IMG/VR virus record: IMGVR_UViG_3300025577_000067
Coordinates: 1-21,890 of that record
Length of the DNA: 21,890 nucleotides
Direction: 5' to 3' (one strand)
Source of the DNA: a virus
This document shows, piece by piece, positions 55 through 15,693 of the stretch; within the stretch, counting starts at the first letter, position 1; each line of letters opens with the position of its first letter. The notes under the pieces were generated by a model that worked only from the letters and a program-made list of their open reading frames with translations, was not told the origin of the DNA and did not search any database. A program made the position numbers and the translations under genes.

Positions 55-264
55 TTATTTGCTTTTCTTAGCTGCTTTCTTAGCTGCCGGAGGCGAGCTG
101 TTTACCTTGCGCTTGTCGTGCGGGTTTTTGATCCATAGTTGGACTTCGCCTGCCTCATCGCAATTCTTGAAAGCATCAAGTGCAACGTCAGCGTTGTCAG
201 AAACCGCCAGCAACTTGTAGTCGCCGTTCGGCTTCTTAATGATAGTAATGCTTGGCTTGTTCAT
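55..264 (-). CDS. Small lysine-tailed head protein, unknown function
   Basis: This 69-residue protein starts two bases after the major capsid stop codon (TAA-TC-ATG). Residues 1-50 look like a compact alpha/beta fold with alternating hydrophobic residues. The last 20 residues are Lys/Ala/Pro-rich and end in AAKKAAKKSK, like a flexible nucleic-acid-binding tail. Its place right after the capsid gene is where lambda keeps its small head-completion gene FI, but no sequence match to FI can be seen, so that role is inference from position only. It is the last gene before a terminator. A similar Lys/Ala run occurs in the small terminase of this phage. Confidence 0.7.
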   Translation of the reverse strand: MNKPSITIIKKPNGDYKLLAVSDNADVALDAFKNCDEAGEVQLWIKNPHDKRKVNSSPPAAKKAAKKSK

Positions 265-1181: not shown

Positions 1182-2255
1182 TTATGATTTGCGATGCTTA
1201 TTCTCGGCATACCAAACGTTTTTAGCGTCAAGCCCTTGCTCGTCGCCAACTCGTTTGTATTCTGCCCAAAACTCATCGCTTGAGATTTTGTTGTTTTCTT
1301 CGTCGCCTAAGTCGGCAACTGGTGCGTGTGCGGTCACTTGGACAAGCTCGGCTGCCTTAGCTGCCACTGCCTCTTCGGTGATTTCCTTGGTTTGCTCGAT
1401 CTCAGCGTCTTTAGCTTCAAGCTCTGCCGCCTTGGTTTCTGCCTCGGCTGCTTTAGCTTCAAGCTCGGCTGCAACCTTCTCAAAGGATGCCTCTGCGGCT
1501 TCCATTGTCAATGCTGCTGAAGCAAGCTCAGTGGTGATTTCCTCAACCTTAGCTTCAAGAGCCTGATTGATGACAACCTGCTCAAGTAGGTCTGCGGAGA
1601 TTTCTGTGCTTGCCTTGCTGATTGCGTCGATCTGCTTGGTCAGTGAAACGACTTGCTTCTCGGCTGGCACTTTGATCTCTGCACCTTCTGCCATTGCTGT
1701 GATATCGCCGGCTGCTGCGCGTAGGCCTGTGCTGATGTGATCAACAAACCCAGCGTCAAATGCTTCTTGTGCTGTGAACCAGGTTTCCTCGTCCATGAGG
1801 TTTTTTAGTTCGTCAGCCTCGTATTGACTGCGACCGTATGAGCTGAGGATGCTGGCGCTCATCTTGTCGAGCAAGTCAGCGTCGGCACGTAGTTCGTCAG
1901 CGTCACCCATTGAGAATGTCCACGGGTTGTGAATCATTAGCAGGGCGTTGTCTGCCATGTGCACTTCGTCGCCTGCCATAGCGATGACTGATGCCATGCT
2001 GGCAGCCAATCCATCAATGTGAGTGATCACTTTTGCTGGGTGGCGTTGGAGTGCATTAAACATTGCGTTGCCGTCAATGACTGATCCACCTGGAGAATTG
2101 ATCCTGAGGTTGATTGTGTCTGCGTTAATGTCTTTCAGCTCGTCAACGAATTGCTTCGCATTAACATCAAATGACCCAATAGCGTCATAGATGCTGATTT
2201 CAGCGGAGGTTTCACCCTCGGCTGCTGTCATATTATACCATGTATTATTGGTCAT
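1182..2255 (-). CDS. ClpP-like prohead protease fused to scaffold
   Basis: This 357-residue protein is probably a head-maturation protease with an internal scaffold. Residues 15-180 carry the ClpP/crotonase fold: INSPGGSV near 52-59, the likely nucleophile Ser86 in GLAASMASVIAMAG, and His109 in MIHNPW. From about residue 200 to 320 the sequence becomes a long Ala/Glu/Lys coiled coil with repeated AELEAKxAE units, typical of scaffolding proteins. Lambda makes protease C and scaffold Nu3 from one overlapping gene; here the two functions appear to be one protein, and an internal start could release scaffold alone. The gene overlaps the portal end by 11 bases and precedes the capsid gene, so it acts inside the prohead before DNA packaging. 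Confidence 0.93.
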   Translation of the reverse strand: MTNNTWYNMTAAEGETSAEISIYDAIGSFDVNAKQFVDELKDINADTINLRINSPGGSVIDGNAMFNALQRHPAKVITHIDGLAASMASVIAMAGDEVHMADNALLMIHNPWTFSMGDADELRADADLLDKMSASILSSYGRSQYEADELKNLMDEETWFTAQEAFDAGFVDHISTGLRAAAGDITAMAEGAEIKVPAEKQVVSLTKQIDAISKASTEISADLLEQVVINQALEAKVEEITTELASAALTMEAAEASFEKVAAELEAKAAEAETKAAELEAKDAEIEQTKEITEEAVAAKAAELVQVTAHAPVADLGDEENNKISSDEFWAEYKRVGDEQGLDAKNVWYAENKHRKS

Positions 2256-6887: not shown

Positions 6888-7693
6888 GGTTTAAGGTAGA
6901 ACTTGCGCTCAGTCTGCACGCAATCAATGAACCACTGTGGCAGGTTAATCTCACCTGGCACCTTAGCCATGCGCTTTAAGCCTTCAAAGACGAGCAAGCC
7001 TGTAAGCATTGGTTTAAGTATCTTACGAACCTCAGCGGGCGGCTTGTTACTTAGCCGCTGGGCGATTTGTTTTGAGTATTTATCGCAGCACGCATTGCCA
7101 CCCCAAATCCAATTTTTAAGAATGCGCTCAACCTCTGGCCGTGGCAATGTCTCGCCACTATCTAAGCCGAGCTTTTTATTGTGCGCTTCCTGTTCGCGTA
7201 TCTGTTTATCAATCTTGAGGTAAGCATCTAGTGCGATTTTCTCCCGTGCGTCGTCTCCTGCCTCTTTGGCTTCCTGAAGCTCAACAAAGTATTCATCGCG
7301 CAGCTCCTCGGCCGTCTTGGTTGCTGTTTTCTTTGCTGCTTTCTTGGCGGTTTTCTTTTTCGGGAACTTGCCTGGGTTGGCGTCCCGGTAAGCACGCTTC
7401 CAATCTTTGCCGCCGGTGATCTTGCTATTAACCATCCATTGGTAAACATCCGCGTCCTTGCCGTCGAAAGGCGCTTTCATTTTCTTCCACCGCACAATGG
7501 TGTCACGAGTAACGTCAAATTCTTTTGCCGTCTCTGATTCAGTTTGCTGCGGCCTCAAGCCTTGCTCCATGCGCTTGAAGTTCTCCACAGCCCTGCGGTC
7601 AGATGCCGTGAGTGTCTTGCCAGCCTTTACCTTCTTGGCGATGTTGCTGATGTTTATTTCCTCAAGTTGTAGGTATTTATCTTTATTTTCCAT
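6884..7693 (-). CDS. Probable small terminase subunit (Nu1-like role)
   Basis: This 269-residue protein precedes and overlaps the large terminase as ATGA, the standard place for the DNA-recognition subunit. Around residues 57-75 the segment TAKEFDVTRDTIVRWKK reads as a helix-turn-helix. A Lys/Ala/Thr-rich linker (KKTAKKAAKKTATK) follows near 112-126, then a helical region with many charged residues and a C-terminal hydrophobic domain that may contact the large subunit. It is longer than lambda Nu1 (181 residues). The ATG at 7693 is chosen because it follows the upstream stop after one base (TAA-T-ATG); an upstream in-frame start would overlap the methyltransferase. Subunit identity is by context and the HTH. 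Confidence 0.75.
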   Translation of the reverse strand: MENKDKYLQLEEINISNIAKKVKAGKTLTASDRRAVENFKRMEQGLRPQQTESETAKEFDVTRDTIVRWKKMKAPFDGKDADVYQWMVNSKITGGKDWKRAYRDANPGKFPKKKTAKKAAKKTATKTAEELRDEYFVELQEAKEAGDDAREKIALDAYLKIDKQIREQEAHNKKLGLDSGETLPRPEVERILKNWIWGGNACCDKYSKQIAQRLSNKPPAEVRKILKPMLTGLLVFEGLKRMAKVPGEINLPQWFIDCVQTERKFYLKP

Positions 7694-7694
7694 A

Positions 7695-8342
7695 TTATTT
7701 TTTTTCAATTACATATCCCGCAAAGTCACCAAAGCGGAAGATTTCAACGGATGGTTGAACCTCTTTCATCGCTAGTGGTCTTTGAACCCCAGCAAGTGAT
7801 AGCTCTTTTGCTAGTATCTCATCAGAGGAAACGCCCGCCGCCGCTTTACCAGCCAAAGCAAGCCGCCATAAAACCGTCGAAATGTAGCCACCCTCAGGTT
7901 CAAATTTATCAAAGATAATTATTGCCCCGCCAGGCTTAATTAAGCCCCTCAATTTGATCATAAAAACCTCCCTCTTTGATGGGGGGATGAACATGAGGCT
8001 CAAATACATTACCGCCAAATCGAAAGGCTTGAAGTCATACTCAGTTGCGTCTGTTACGATTAGCTTGCTTGGCCCATCGTATATGTCAGACATTGCATCC
8101 GAATTATCCAAAGGGATAAACTCTGCTTGCCTATCATTAAGTGTATCAGATAGGGCTTTGCCTATGTTCCCAGTACTTGCCCCTATGTCATAAACTAACC
8201 CATTTTGAGGGATGTAGTGCCGAGCAACGTGAGAGACAACCCCCGTGGTCAAATCATACCAAGGCAATTGTTCCCTTACGTGACGATCAAACTCGTCAGC
8301 AACGTGAGCGGTTTTGAATGTCCAATCTCTAGGAATTTTCAT
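7695..8342 (-). CDS. CmoA-like SAM-dependent methyltransferase
   Basis: This 215-residue protein is a class I methyltransferase. The SAM-binding motif I is VYDIGASTGN (residues 50-59), the acidic residue of motif II lies in PLDNSDAM, and later segments YLSLMFIPPSKRE, IKPGGAIIIFDKF and the final FRFGDFAGYVIEKK match the layout of CmoA, the carboxy-SAM synthase of tRNA wobble modification. No NPPY-type catalytic motif of amino-methyltransferases is seen. The substrate is unknown; DNA, tRNA, or a modified nucleotide are all possible. The start overlaps the cytosine methyltransferase by 14 bases, so the two are probably translated together. The CmoA resemblance is by eye and not proof of carboxy-SAM chemistry. 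Confidence 0.85.
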   Translation of the reverse strand: MKIPRDWTFKTAHVADEFDRHVREQLPWYDLTTGVVSHVARHYIPQNGLVYDIGASTGNIGKALSDTLNDRQAEFIPLDNSDAMSDIYDGPSKLIVTDATEYDFKPFDLAVMYLSLMFIPPSKREVFMIKLRGLIKPGGAIIIFDKFEPEGGYISTVLWRLALAGKAAAGVSSDEILAKELSLAGVQRPLAMKEVQPSVEIFRFGDFAGYVIEKK

Positions 8343-9558
8343 CTGTTACCTTGGTTAAAATTTCATCGTGAATCGTCTGCGCAATATGTGACATCATCAC
8401 CGGAGGGACTGACCTACCTAGTCGTTCCCATTGTTTAACATAATCACCCTTCAAAACAAAGTCATCCGGAAAACCACAAATTCTTTTTAGCTCTTGAATA
8501 GAAAATTTACGGCACTCTGTCGGGTGAGATACGCTAGCACACCCAGGCGAGCCACCCATTGCTGTAACCGTCTGACATGGTTTATCTAGTGATGACCTCA
8601 CAAGGTTGAAATACTTATCTGATGACTGCCCCTGTTTGAGTTTCTTCCATTCCTTGCCAGTTGCGTATTTTTTAAGGCAAGCCCCTTTTTCTATTATCAG
8701 ATCACTGTGTGATTCAGTAATTATTTTTTTTGACTCGTCTTTATTTTCCTTCAGAACTTGAAAGTGTCTTGAGTTTACACCATTGACCCCAACTGTGATT
8801 GTTGGCGAAGTCCTGTTTGTTATTTCACCTGTTGACCATAAACCGCTAGTGTCGTGAACCACTTTTAGTATCCACGGGCAAGCGTCACTAATGCTGTATT
8901 GATAGGATAACGGTGAAGGGTGAACTGGGTTGAGCTTCAAGTCCTCCCTTACTCCAATGAATATTGTCCTCTGCCGACTCTGTGGGACTCCCAACCACTT
9001 AGCATCCAAGACTCTGCAGCTAACCTTGTATCCGCAATCCTTTAGTTCTTTTAAGATTTCCTTGAAATATCCTTTTGCTGATCCCTTCACTAAGCCGGAA
9101 ACATTCTCGGCCACAAAAACCTTGGGCTTCATTTCTCTTATTAGCCGAGAGTATTGAAAAAACAAGTCATCCGTTCTTTGGCTTGAGTCGGAGTATTTTT
9201 TAACAGTTCCCCAACCCTTTTGTCTTTTGCCCGCCGTACTGAATGAAGCGCACGGAGGTGAACCGTCAAGGATGTCTAGCTCACCGACTTTAAGCCCAGC
9301 CTTTTCAAGTAGCTCCGAACCCTTTACTTCTCTGATGTCTCTCGGGTCAAGAATTGCTTTACTGTTCGCCGCATAGCTTTCCCTTGCCGCAGGGATGAAC
9401 TCATTAGCGAGCAGGACTCGATAGCCTGCCATGCGGTATCCTAGCGAAGAACCTCCGCAACCGGAGAACGTAGATATGACATTATATCCATTCCACTTAA
9501 TTGCCTTGATGTCCTTCATTGAGGGCACGGCATATTTTGGCTTATCAGCTCCACTCAT
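8329..9558 (-). CDS. DNA cytosine-5 methyltransferase
   Basis: The protein has about 409 residues and should methylate cytosine C5 in phage DNA. It shows the ordered family motifs: I (TFSGCGGSSLGYRMAGY, near residue 30), IV with the catalytic Cys in GSPPCASFS (near 103), VI (AENVSGL), VIII (QSRQRTIFIG), IX around KPCQTVTAMGGSPG, and X near the C-terminus (GRSVPPVM). The region between VIII and IX is the expected target-recognition domain. No cognate restriction enzyme is adjacent, so it is probably an orphan that protects phage DNA. The ATG at 9558 overlaps the ParB-like gene by 14 bases; upstream in-frame starts at 9579 or 9591 are possible. Confidence 0.93.
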   Translation of the reverse strand: MSGADKPKYAVPSMKDIKAIKWNGYNVISTFSGCGGSSLGYRMAGYRVLLANEFIPAARESYAANSKAILDPRDIREVKGSELLEKAGLKVGELDILDGSPPCASFSTAGKRQKGWGTVKKYSDSSQRTDDLFFQYSRLIREMKPKVFVAENVSGLVKGSAKGYFKEILKELKDCGYKVSCRVLDAKWLGVPQSRQRTIFIGVREDLKLNPVHPSPLSYQYSISDACPWILKVVHDTSGLWSTGEITNRTSPTITVGVNGVNSRHFQVLKENKDESKKIITESHSDLIIEKGACLKKYATGKEWKKLKQGQSSDKYFNLVRSSLDKPCQTVTAMGGSPGCASVSHPTECRKFSIQELKRICGFPDDFVLKGDYVKQWERLGRSVPPVMMSHIAQTIHDEILTKVTDENS

Positions 9559-13845: not shown

Positions 13846-14187
13846 CTAGAATGGGATTTCCTCTGCTTCCTCTGCGCTTGCACCTGCGGGTGCTGCCACC
13901 GGAGTTGATCCCATCTCTTGGCCCTCGAGCTTCCACGCTACCAGGTTGACGAAATATTTCTCATTCCATTCTCGGCCTCGGATGTTGATGTAAACCTTAA
14001 CGCGGTCACCGATGTTGTATTTGTCAATCAGGCTTGTCTTGTCTTTAACCAGCTCGAACTTGATATCTTGCGGGTAGTCACCATCATCCGTTGTCTTGAT
14101 GACAAACTCACGTTTAGTAAATCCGCTGTCAAAGGTGATGATGTCGTCAATGGCAATAATTGTGCCTTCTTTTGTTATGTCGCTCAT
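13846..14187 (-). CDS. DUF3127-type single-strand DNA-binding protein
   Basis: This 113-residue protein has an OB-fold pattern like the DUF3127 family: an N-terminal GTIIAID strand, [48 protein letters not shown] (about 62-88). The C-terminus is a flexible Ala/Gly/Pro linker ending in EEAEEIPF, matching the acidic tip (DDIPF) by which bacterial SSB recruits partner enzymes. Together these support an SSB role in the replication fork and recombination. DUF3127 is, to my knowledge, mainly found in Bacteroidota and their phages, which hints at the host. The gene follows a repeated RNA-like element at 14252-14343. Confidence 0.87.
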
Positions 14188-14251: not shown

Positions 14252-14343
14252 GTATAAAAGTTGCCCAGCTTTTACGCGGTTACTGGGCTGGCGATGAAAC
14301 TGACCAGGGCAATGAATAGACCCCGCCGCAATACCAGATTTTT
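14252..14343 (-). ncRNA. Repeated structured RNA element, copy 2
   Basis: The element begins at the TAA of the 122-residue gene and lies in the leader of the SSB-like gene. On the plus numbering the hairpin is GCCCAG (14263-14268), the 14-base loop CTTTTACGCGGTTA (14269-14282) and CTGGGC (14283-14288). A second pairing is GGCG (14290-14293) with CGCC (14324-14327), closing a GGG/CCC hairpin. The loop CGCGG can pair with CCGCA near 14326-14330. The transcript should be minus-strand. The same layout recurs at 14726-14812 with a different stem sequence. No known RNA class was recognised. Confidence 0.72.
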
Positions 14344-14710
14344 AATGGTCGCAATTTGCAATTTTCTCATGATTTGTAATAACTGCCCTATTGCCTGCAC
14401 CTAAAGAACCACCCAACAGGCAGTTATATTGGTATAGAGAATCCCTAGATGAAAAAGAAGCTAGATCAACATTAAGCCTGCCTTGCTCCCTCTTTTCTTT
14501 GAAATATTTGACCGCCTTTTCTACTTTTACCATGTCTGGGTGCTTTGCCTGCCTATCTGAGGCCTCTTGGATAAGTCTGCGTTGCGTTTTGCGCTTGCTA
14601 ACCGGGCATTCTACAAAGCGTGGATGCCACCGAGGAGGAACTACCTTTAGCCACTGCCTTTTATCATACTCGGTTGGCTTGCCGTTTTTGATGAAATTAA
14701 ATTGTAACAT
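14342..14710 (-). CDS. Unknown protein bracketed by two RNA-like repeats
   Basis: I do not recognise this 122-residue protein. The N-terminal 60 residues are basic with a WLKVVPPRWHPRFVECPVS segment (20-38), and a helical Lys/Arg/Glu stretch follows (60-80). The C-terminal third has Ser, Gly and Asn-rich sequence and ends in NCDH. The net charge is positive, so nucleic-acid binding is plausible. No catalytic motif is evident. It lies between the exonuclease and SSB-like genes and is flanked on both sides by the same structured element, which suggests it came in or moved as a cassette with one copy. Confidence 0.72.
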   Translation of the reverse strand: MLQFNFIKNGKPTEYDKRQWLKVVPPRWHPRFVECPVSKRKTQRRLIQEASDRQAKHPDMVKVEKAVKYFKEKREQGRLNVDLASFSSRDSLYQYNCLLGGSLGAGNRAVITNHEKIANCDH

Positions 14711-14725
14711 TATGTTTTCTTATAA

Positions 14726-14812
14726 GTATTAAAATTTGCAGGCTTTTACGCGGTTACCTGCAGGCGCTATGACTAACCAGGGAGTTACTCCCCGCCGCGA
14801 TACCAGATTTTT
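14726..14812 (-). ncRNA. Repeated structured RNA element, copy 1
   Basis: The element begins at the TGA of the exonuclease gene and lies in the leader of the 122-residue gene. The hairpin is TGCAGG (14737-14742), loop CTTTTACGCGGTTA (14743-14756, identical to the other copy) and CCTGCA (14757-14762). GGCG (14763-14766) can pair with CGCC (14793-14796) around a GGGAG/CTCCC hairpin (14780-14792). Loop CGCGG (14749-14753) is fully complementary to CCGCG (14795-14799), a possible pseudoknot that shares two bases with the GGCG/CGCC stem. On the minus strand the main hairpin is followed by AATTTT, as in the other copy. Confidence 0.72.
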
Positions 14813-15693
14813 CATATTGCTTCAGTCAATCCATCAATTTCCTCATCATCCATGTGCTGGCCAAACATGGCACGCCCTAAGAGAACCGGCTTCTCATACT
14901 TCATCGGCCACCAGTTTTTATCTGCTGCCCTTACCAGCTTGCCCAGGAGGTGCGAGAACATGTCAGCGCCCGCTTGTATATCAGCCGCAGGCATCTCTGT
15001 CACAGCCACCTCATAAGGAGCTGTTGACTGCTGCCAAACGATCTGAAATCGGTCGCGCTGGTCATCGGGGTGTAAACTATTCCAGAGGTTGAGATACAGC
15101 CCGGCTTGAACATTATAGCCAAACTTCGCCTGAGTCTTCTCAAAGCCGCCTGCCGAAAAGTCAGCGGTCGTTTTTAAGTCCATCAGGAATGGCTCGCCCT
15201 CCGGCGCTAGGTCAACAAGCCCTTTGACCTGCACCTTTCTATCAACGCTTGGGTGTTCCATTTTATTGAGTAGCATCACCTGGCGCTTGCTCTTCTCGAT
15301 CATCTTGGCTGCATACTTATGCGTTGACGTCAAGGTCTTCACCGCCTTCTGTGCCTCGTCAAGCAGCTCCTTGTTAATGATCGTCTTATGGTTTGCCTCC
15401 TGTTCTGCCTTCCATTCTCGCGCCTCTTTAGTTCTGAAGCTATCGAATGGGCTGATGGCAAACTCGGTCTGTAAGTCCTCTGGAGCCGTTATAATCGTAT
15501 CTACAAGTGAACCCCAAGCCATTGCTGTCGAGGGTTTAAACTCCCGTGGGAAGTAACGCCACTTGTAGAGGCTCGATTGATACAACTCGTAAACGCTTGA
15601 CTTGCTCAACCAGGAATCGGAGCCAAAGATATTCTCCCTGTTTAGAGTCAGCTCGCTATGGTATTGGCTGGGTAGTATTTCTAATGTATTCAT
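14812..15693 (-). CDS. RecE/exonuclease VIII-like nuclease
   Basis: This protein of about 293 residues resembles the PD-(D/E)XK exonucleases of the RecE type (DUF3799/PDDEXK_1). It shows KGLVDLAPEGEPFLMDLKTTADFS with Asp161, Asp172 and Lys174, and the QAGLY helix (196-200) that follows the active site. The AWGSLVDTIITAPED segment near 59-73 corresponds to the GxxxHxxxLEP motif, with the His replaced. It should resect double-stranded ends for phage recombination. No Beta- or RecT-type annealing protein is recognisable beside it; the preceding 135-residue gene may take that role. The ATG at 15693 follows the upstream stop by one base (TAA-T-ATG), as for the small terminase. Confidence 0.9.
   Translation of the reverse strand: MNTLEILPSQYHSELTLNRENIFGSDSWLSKSSVYELYQSSLYKWRYFPREFKPSTAMAWGSLVDTIITAPEDLQTEFAISPFDSFRTKEAREWKAEQEANHKTIINKELLDEAQKAVKTLTSTHKYAAKMIEKSKRQVMLLNKMEHPSVDRKVQVKGLVDLAPEGEPFLMDLKTTADFSAGGFEKTQAKFGYNVQAGLYLNLWNSLHPDDQRDRFQIVWQQSTAPYEVAVTEMPAADIQAGADMFSHLLGKLVRAADKNWWPMKYEKPVLLGRAMFGQHMDDEEIDGLTEAI

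Follow-up and report, generated by a model that had tools for sequence, protein, structure and literature searches.

A pseudoknotted RNA family at phage gene boundaries and in Bathyarchaeal genomes

Introduction

The HK022 put RNA and the Bacillus EAR are processive antitermination RNAs (PMC9378689). Both are structured RNAs in early phage transcripts, and in this they resemble the element described here, which in one clade of phage loci often lies just before a terminator. Their fold and conserved sequence differ from those of the element, however, and unlike them the element has independent copies in archaea and relatives of its phage loci that retain the terminator without it. The small self-cleaving ribozymes (hammerhead, twister, pistol, hatchet, and HDV-like/theta) are alike in size, in combining helices with a pseudoknot, in their patchy occurrence in phages and archaea, and in their placement at gene boundaries, but the element has no CUGANGA/GAAA core, no nested double pseudoknot, and no Rfam match. 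For self-cleaving ribozymes, PMC10085705 lists as expected traits a length of 50-80 nt, conserved nucleotides, and either junctions or pseudoknots, and it reports that ten motifs of similar appearance did not cleave when assayed. Attenuation riboswitches likewise place an aptamer-like fold ahead of a terminator hairpin, as the element does before polA in one clade; the element differs in showing no alternative pairing, in that the terminator stays where the element is missing, and in having no common class of regulated genes beyond that clade. A further related group is the orphan structured RNAs of comparative genomics, which were found by covariation, have no assigned function, and are spread over phages and metagenomes (e.g., PMC2864571, PMC8040213); the element matches 0 of 4227 Rfam 15 models and occurs in Bathyarchaeal genomes too. 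Here we describe this new RNA family, with its fold, its strand, and its distribution.

Results

Two copies flank a small ORF in a phage replication module

The window, i.e., the whole stretch of DNA analyzed, is a linear IMG/VR virus record of 21,890 bases. A preliminary description had pointed out two hairpins with a common 14-nt loop and different stems, and we confirmed both, at 14263-14288 and 14737-14762; GCCGCRATACCAGATTTTT occurs exactly twice, against 0.01 occurrences expected by chance. Each hairpin proved to be the last helix (P4) of a larger element, and the features are as follows.

13846-14187, minus strand: gene of the DUF3127 ssDNA-binding-protein family, after copy 1 (DUF3127 1.8e-25; phrog_4932 1.5e-27)
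14255-14344, minus strand: copy 1, P1 to P1' (covariance-model core 14262-14340; model R1 85.2 bits, E 1e-20)
14263-14288, minus strand: copy 1 P4 hairpin, loop UAACCGCGUAAAAG (14269-14282), with the strongest covariation in the family
14289-14292, minus strand: copy 1 P2 3' strand GCCA, from covariation
14303-14306, minus strand: copy 1 internal-loop UGGU, invariant both in alignment A8 and in A11, the sample selected by protein
14307-14323, minus strand: copy 1 P3 hairpin, GGG 14321-14323 with CCC 14307-14309 (columns 20-22/88-90 covary)
14326-14330, minus strand: copy 1 pseudoknot 5' strand UGCGG, partner CCGCG 14275-14279 (compensatory changes among homologues)
14333-14336, minus strand: copy 1 P2 5' strand UGGU, partner GCCA 14289-14292 (columns 5/111 and 8/108 covary)
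14340-14344, minus strand: copy 1 P1 5' strand UAAAA, partner 14255-14259 (helix search with covariation over homologues)
14342-14710, minus strand: 122-aa ORF between the copies, without Pfam or PHROG match
14731-14811, minus strand: copy 2, P1 to P1' (core 14736-14809; model R1 69.3 bits)
14737-14762, minus strand: copy 2 P4 hairpin, loop UAACCGCGUAAAAG (14743-14756), from sequence and covariation
14780-14792, minus strand: copy 2 P3 hairpin GGGAG/CUCCC, from sequence and family covariation
14795-14799, minus strand: copy 2 pseudoknot 5' strand CGCGG, partner CCGCG 14749-14753 (compensation in homologues)
14802-14805, minus strand: copy 2 P2 5' strand UGGU, partner 14762-14765 with the outer pair mismatched, from alignment and covariation
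14807-14811, minus strand: copy 2 P1 5' strand AAAAU, partner 14731-14735 (helix search with covariation over homologues)
14812-15693, minus strand: upstream gene, PD-(D/E)XK exonuclease VIII-like, DUF3799 (Pfam DUF3799 3.8e-15; phrog_412 exonuclease VIII 9.3e-37)

The start of copy 1 coincides with the 122-aa ORF's stop codon, which its P1 strand takes in, and copy 2 begins immediately past the exonuclease stop codon at 14812-14814. The same two-copy layout around the same ORF was found in loci L029 and L368. Blastn with the window stretch as query found no match among cultured phages; the nearest cultured relatives of the exonuclease, at less than 30% identity, belong to Synechococcus phages.

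The element recurs in uncultured aquatic phages and some archaea

Scanning viral contigs with exact 15-mers yielded mostly chance matches in coding sequence, along with a few real homologues. Patterns built on the loop and the conserved box recovered true relatives in viral contigs, in the Bathyarchaeota MAG QDN_3, and in a Hermodarchaeon MAG. With R1, a covariance model that left out the pseudoknot, and looser scans, we obtained at least 176 matches in at least 94 distinct clusters, and 93 distinct elements were aligned (A8). Furthermore, a search of viral contigs that relied solely on the DNA polymerase protein encoded next to the element, with no RNA pattern (A10), found 80 loci; the element was present in 73 of them, comprising 52 distinct elements. 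Overall, the family spans more than 100 uncultured aquatic phages and some archaea. A phage contig usually carries one copy and rarely two; in L378, two elements whose P4 stems differ stand in direct tandem (23-98 and 123-200, minus strand), separated by 24 nt.

We did not find the element in 395 Bacteroidota genomes, and the two weak matches among 398 Pseudomonadota genomes lay inside coding genes and are due to chance. A random phylum-level sampling of archaea did not find it either. Archaeal copies are concentrated in one Bathyarchaeal family, in which 5 of 27 genomes carry one to eight copies each on chromosome-like contigs.

Compensatory substitutions define the fold and the strand

The element measures ∼70-100 nt, with ∼28 conserved nucleotides. 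Read on the minus strand, it consists of an optional outer helix P1; P2 (NGGN/NCCN); an internal loop between P2 and P3 with ANYGCGGCG on its 5' side and UGGUYA, followed by 5-9 nt, on the other; P3; and, after P2', P4 of 6 bp with the loop UAACCGCRUAAAA(G). In A8, 97.1% of the cells were paired, and 13 of the 18 pairs had changed on both sides. The covariation score was 0.633, against 0.151 for shuffled alignments and ∼0.1 or less when slid. As a further null, we used 40 alignments simulated along a tree (IQ-TREE/AliSim): the nine top-scoring column pairs all fell in P2, P3, or P4, and seven of them had scores never reached in the null. The element is thus a structured RNA whose compensatory substitutions go beyond phylogeny.

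P1 also covaries where it is present (matched mean 12.9, against 9.5 for the best of 2000 permutations). About half of the members have no P1 and keep the core, so an obligatory switch helix, which we had considered for P1, was ruled out. An extra C106-G134 pair (A8 numbering) is A-U in archaea, and where the P4 loop lacks its last nucleotide, C106 is usually missing too; with C106 immediately before P2' and G134 at the end of the P4 loop, the pair is probably tertiary.

Over the P2 to P4 pairs of 94 clusters, the minus-strand reading gave 1084 Watson-Crick, 82 G-U, and 13 A-C combinations, and reading the opposite strand would exchange the last two counts. Because G-U so exceeds A-C, we assign the RNA to the minus strand, in agreement with the direction of most flanking long ORFs. 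The preliminary description had been right in proposing a structured RNA whose stems covary and which contains a pseudoknot, and wrong in its strand. Neither of the two outcomes that it had named as refuting the idea came about, since its stems stayed complementary in homologues and no Rfam family gave a meaningful score. Its GGG/CCC hairpin is P3, as homologues prove. It had overlooked P1 (14340-14344/14255-14259 and 14807-14811/14731-14735), and the plus-strand 3' segment that it called a box is made up of P1, P2, and the pseudoknot strand. The GGCG/CGCC stem that it drew was not kept in homologues. Since the bases of that stem are divided between P2 (in copy 1, CUGG/CCAG) and the pseudoknot strand, the notion of alternative states sharing two bases is unsupported.

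The pseudoknot is compensated in sequences found without a pattern

The pseudoknot joins CCGCR of the P4 loop to YGCGG in the 5' strand of the internal loop between P2 and P3. This complementarity had been noted at the outset as CGCGG/CCGCR with one wobble, and homologues bear it out; the wobble is a U-G pair on the minus strand only. Our DNA search patterns had fixed GCGG and CCGC, and therefore we judged the pseudoknot on cases free of this bias. Relatives that the model recovered from Bathyarchaeal genomes had GAGG/CCUC (L406, L407, L408, and L410) or GCAG/CUGC (L409 and L411), and the compensated variants are GCGG/CCGC, GAGG/CCUC, GCAG/CUGC, and GUGG/CCAC. In the protein-selected sample of 52 distinct elements, pairing in the pseudoknot reached 99.2%, and all but one of its five pairs were altered on both sides, with a C-G to U-A change in 16 sequences. 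The consensus of this sample repeated the same invariant nucleotides in the internal loop and the P4 loop, confirming that their conservation is no artefact of the search patterns.

Phage copies lie between replication genes

In phages, the element sits between a stop codon and the following gene, almost always in replication modules of closely packed, mostly co-directional genes, and the next start codon is often 6-40 nt beyond it. Long ORFs near phage elements ran along the element in 174 cases and against it in 21. DNA polymerase genes were the most frequent downstream neighbors (21 of 72), besides genes for ssDNA-binding, RusA, Sak4, and replication-initiation proteins; primase/helicase, exonuclease, and HNH genes stood upstream. 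Further sites were near terminase, integrase, and glycosyltransferase genes, and in L156 (20-187) the element lies a few bases upstream of a tRNA gene.

In the PolA clade, a strong GC hairpin, in most cases with a U-rich tail, follows P4' by 0-12 nt, shortly before the polA start codon, which leaves no room for a promoter. The element was present in 73 of the 79 intact loci of this clade, and the six intact relatives without it retain the same terminator, which makes the element a separable module with no obligatory tie to the terminator. Its exact insertion boundaries cannot be read because these relatives are too diverged. Most loci next to other genes have no terminator.

The preliminary description had also raised an attenuator. 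We did not observe attenuation through alternative pairing: terminator arms paired with their own element no better than with others (-13.84 kcal/mol matched and -13.72 kcal/mol mismatched). A replacement of the Shine-Dalgarno sequence was rejected as well, as this sequence was no weaker at starts after elements than in genes of the same contig (p = 0.78). Across all phage loci, Shine-Dalgarno sequences at start codons were generally weak.

Archaeal copies resemble separate transcription units

Archaeal copies have an A/T-rich, TATA-like sequence ∼25-30 nt upstream of P1, placed by inspection, and their A/T profile is modestly peaked (0.74 at -25 to -21). Several of them (the L195 copy at 2523, L244, L413, and L415) are convergent with the 3' end of the next gene. 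This upstream sequence and the convergent neighbors suggest that archaeal copies may be transcribed as separate units. In QDN_3, the motif CYTTAAKCGGTGAT has 12 occurrences genome-wide; it precedes the element and sometimes follows it as well, and is possibly a promoter or a flanking repeat. At the QDN_3 loci L280, L281, and L232, CYTTAAKCGGTGAT often flanks the elements closely, both before and after.

Two side observations concern single archaeal loci. In L418, a degenerate and a good copy stand opposed to each other ∼460 nt apart (1501-1574, plus strand, and 2037-2110, minus strand), suggesting decay or mobility. In L416, an ORF at 7461-8804, ∼2 kb from the archaeal copy, resembles a tyrosine recombinase by eye.

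The fold differs from known RNA classes

The early impression that the hairpins fit no known class agreed with our comparisons, in which no Rfam family scored meaningfully. Rfam 15 (4227 models) gave no match to the window elements or to ∼35 loci, and scanning the window around the elements at lax thresholds gave nothing; lax scans of the loci returned only sR44 (E 3 and 0.79, far under the cut-off) and the tRNA adjoining an element. The main texts of the open-licence literature searched do not describe the motif. The A8 and A11 consensus contained neither the CUGANGA nor the GAAA box that the hammerhead has at its three-way junction, and there was no Rfam match. The nested double pseudoknot of HDV-like/theta ribozymes, in which the 5' P1 strand pairs 3' of P3, was not found; the supported pairs are instead P2, P3, P4, and a pseudoknot between loop and internal loop. 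The mutually exclusive terminator and antiterminator or aptamer pairing of attenuation riboswitches was also missing, the arms pairing equally.

Discussion

Our tentative reading, to which we give a probability of about 0.4, is that the element acts as an independent noncoding RNA, a small RNA complete in itself. In phages it would be transcribed within operons and set free at gene boundaries, with an intrinsic terminator following closely in one clade, whereas in archaea it would appear to have a promoter of its own. The pseudoknot and the extra C-G contact (A-U in archaea) would hold the invariant nucleotides ANYGCGGCG, UGGUYA, and UAA...UAAAA as a rigid surface, to which a protein or some conserved machinery of the cell might bind in the course of infection. 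We favor an autonomous small RNA because the element is gained or lost as a module and because of its arrangement in archaea: the core is kept without P1, PolA loci without an element keep their terminator, and archaeal copies are arranged as if they had their own promoters. On the other hand, the tightly packed co-directional genes of the phages fit cis-control or self-cleavage equally well, and cis-regulation and processing are both possible roles. As a cis element on the next gene, it could be an antiterminator of the put/EAR kind before polA, or a leader that senses a ligand or protein and gates termination or translation. The sense orientation (174 against 21 long ORFs), the terminator close before polA with no promoter room, the start codons 6-40 nt downstream elsewhere, and the share of DNA polymerases among downstream genes (21 of 72) are what such a role would predict. 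Yet we consider it somewhat doubtful: no alternative pairing of element and terminator is conserved, the terminator is unchanged in relatives without the element, most loci away from polymerase genes have none, and there is no Shine-Dalgarno effect. The archaeal copies that face the 3' end of the next gene also seem to argue against a purely cis-regulatory role.

A new self-cleaving ribozyme cutting transcripts at gene boundaries strikes us as unlikely. Its size, multi-helix layout, pseudoknot, and ∼28 conserved nucleotides, some of them among the traits listed for such ribozymes (PMC10085705), and the patchy spread over phages and archaea with no fixed gene partner would suit it, but the sequence boxes of known ribozymes are absent, ten look-alike motifs reportedly did not cleave (PMC10085705), and a stand-alone archaeal transcript starting at P1 would present no obvious substrate. 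We likewise think it improbable that a ribozyme class common to phages and archaea, with a pseudoknot-organized active site of its own, processes transcripts at these boundaries. A site acting as DNA in recombination, replication, or packaging, its hairpins being folded single strands, might account for the paired copies around an ORF (window, L029, and L368), the tandem in L378, the neighborhood of replication genes, and the opposed pair in one archaeal genome. Folded DNA would show no preference for G-U over A-C, however, and the counts of 82 and 13 are an RNA signature that fixes the strand; with the strong sense bias in phages and usually one copy per contig, a DNA site is very improbable. 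Least credible, with hardly any chance of being right, is a conserved short peptide encoded by the minus-strand small ORF ending ..VTA* in some copies. Frames of 20-30 codons are open in copy 1 and L029, but the frame joining the two conserved segments varies among homologues, the 3' strand of P4 lies beyond the stop, and substitutions keep base pairs; we rejected it.

What is new here is the RNA family and its fold, while its function is a prediction from sequence. It is uncommon for a new RNA class to combine such covariation with so many invariant nucleotides, and what lies behind it is usually catalysis, the sensing of a ligand, or a dedicated RNA-protein complex. The presence of the element in both aquatic phages and Bathyarchaeal genomes indicates that the same fold works in two domains.
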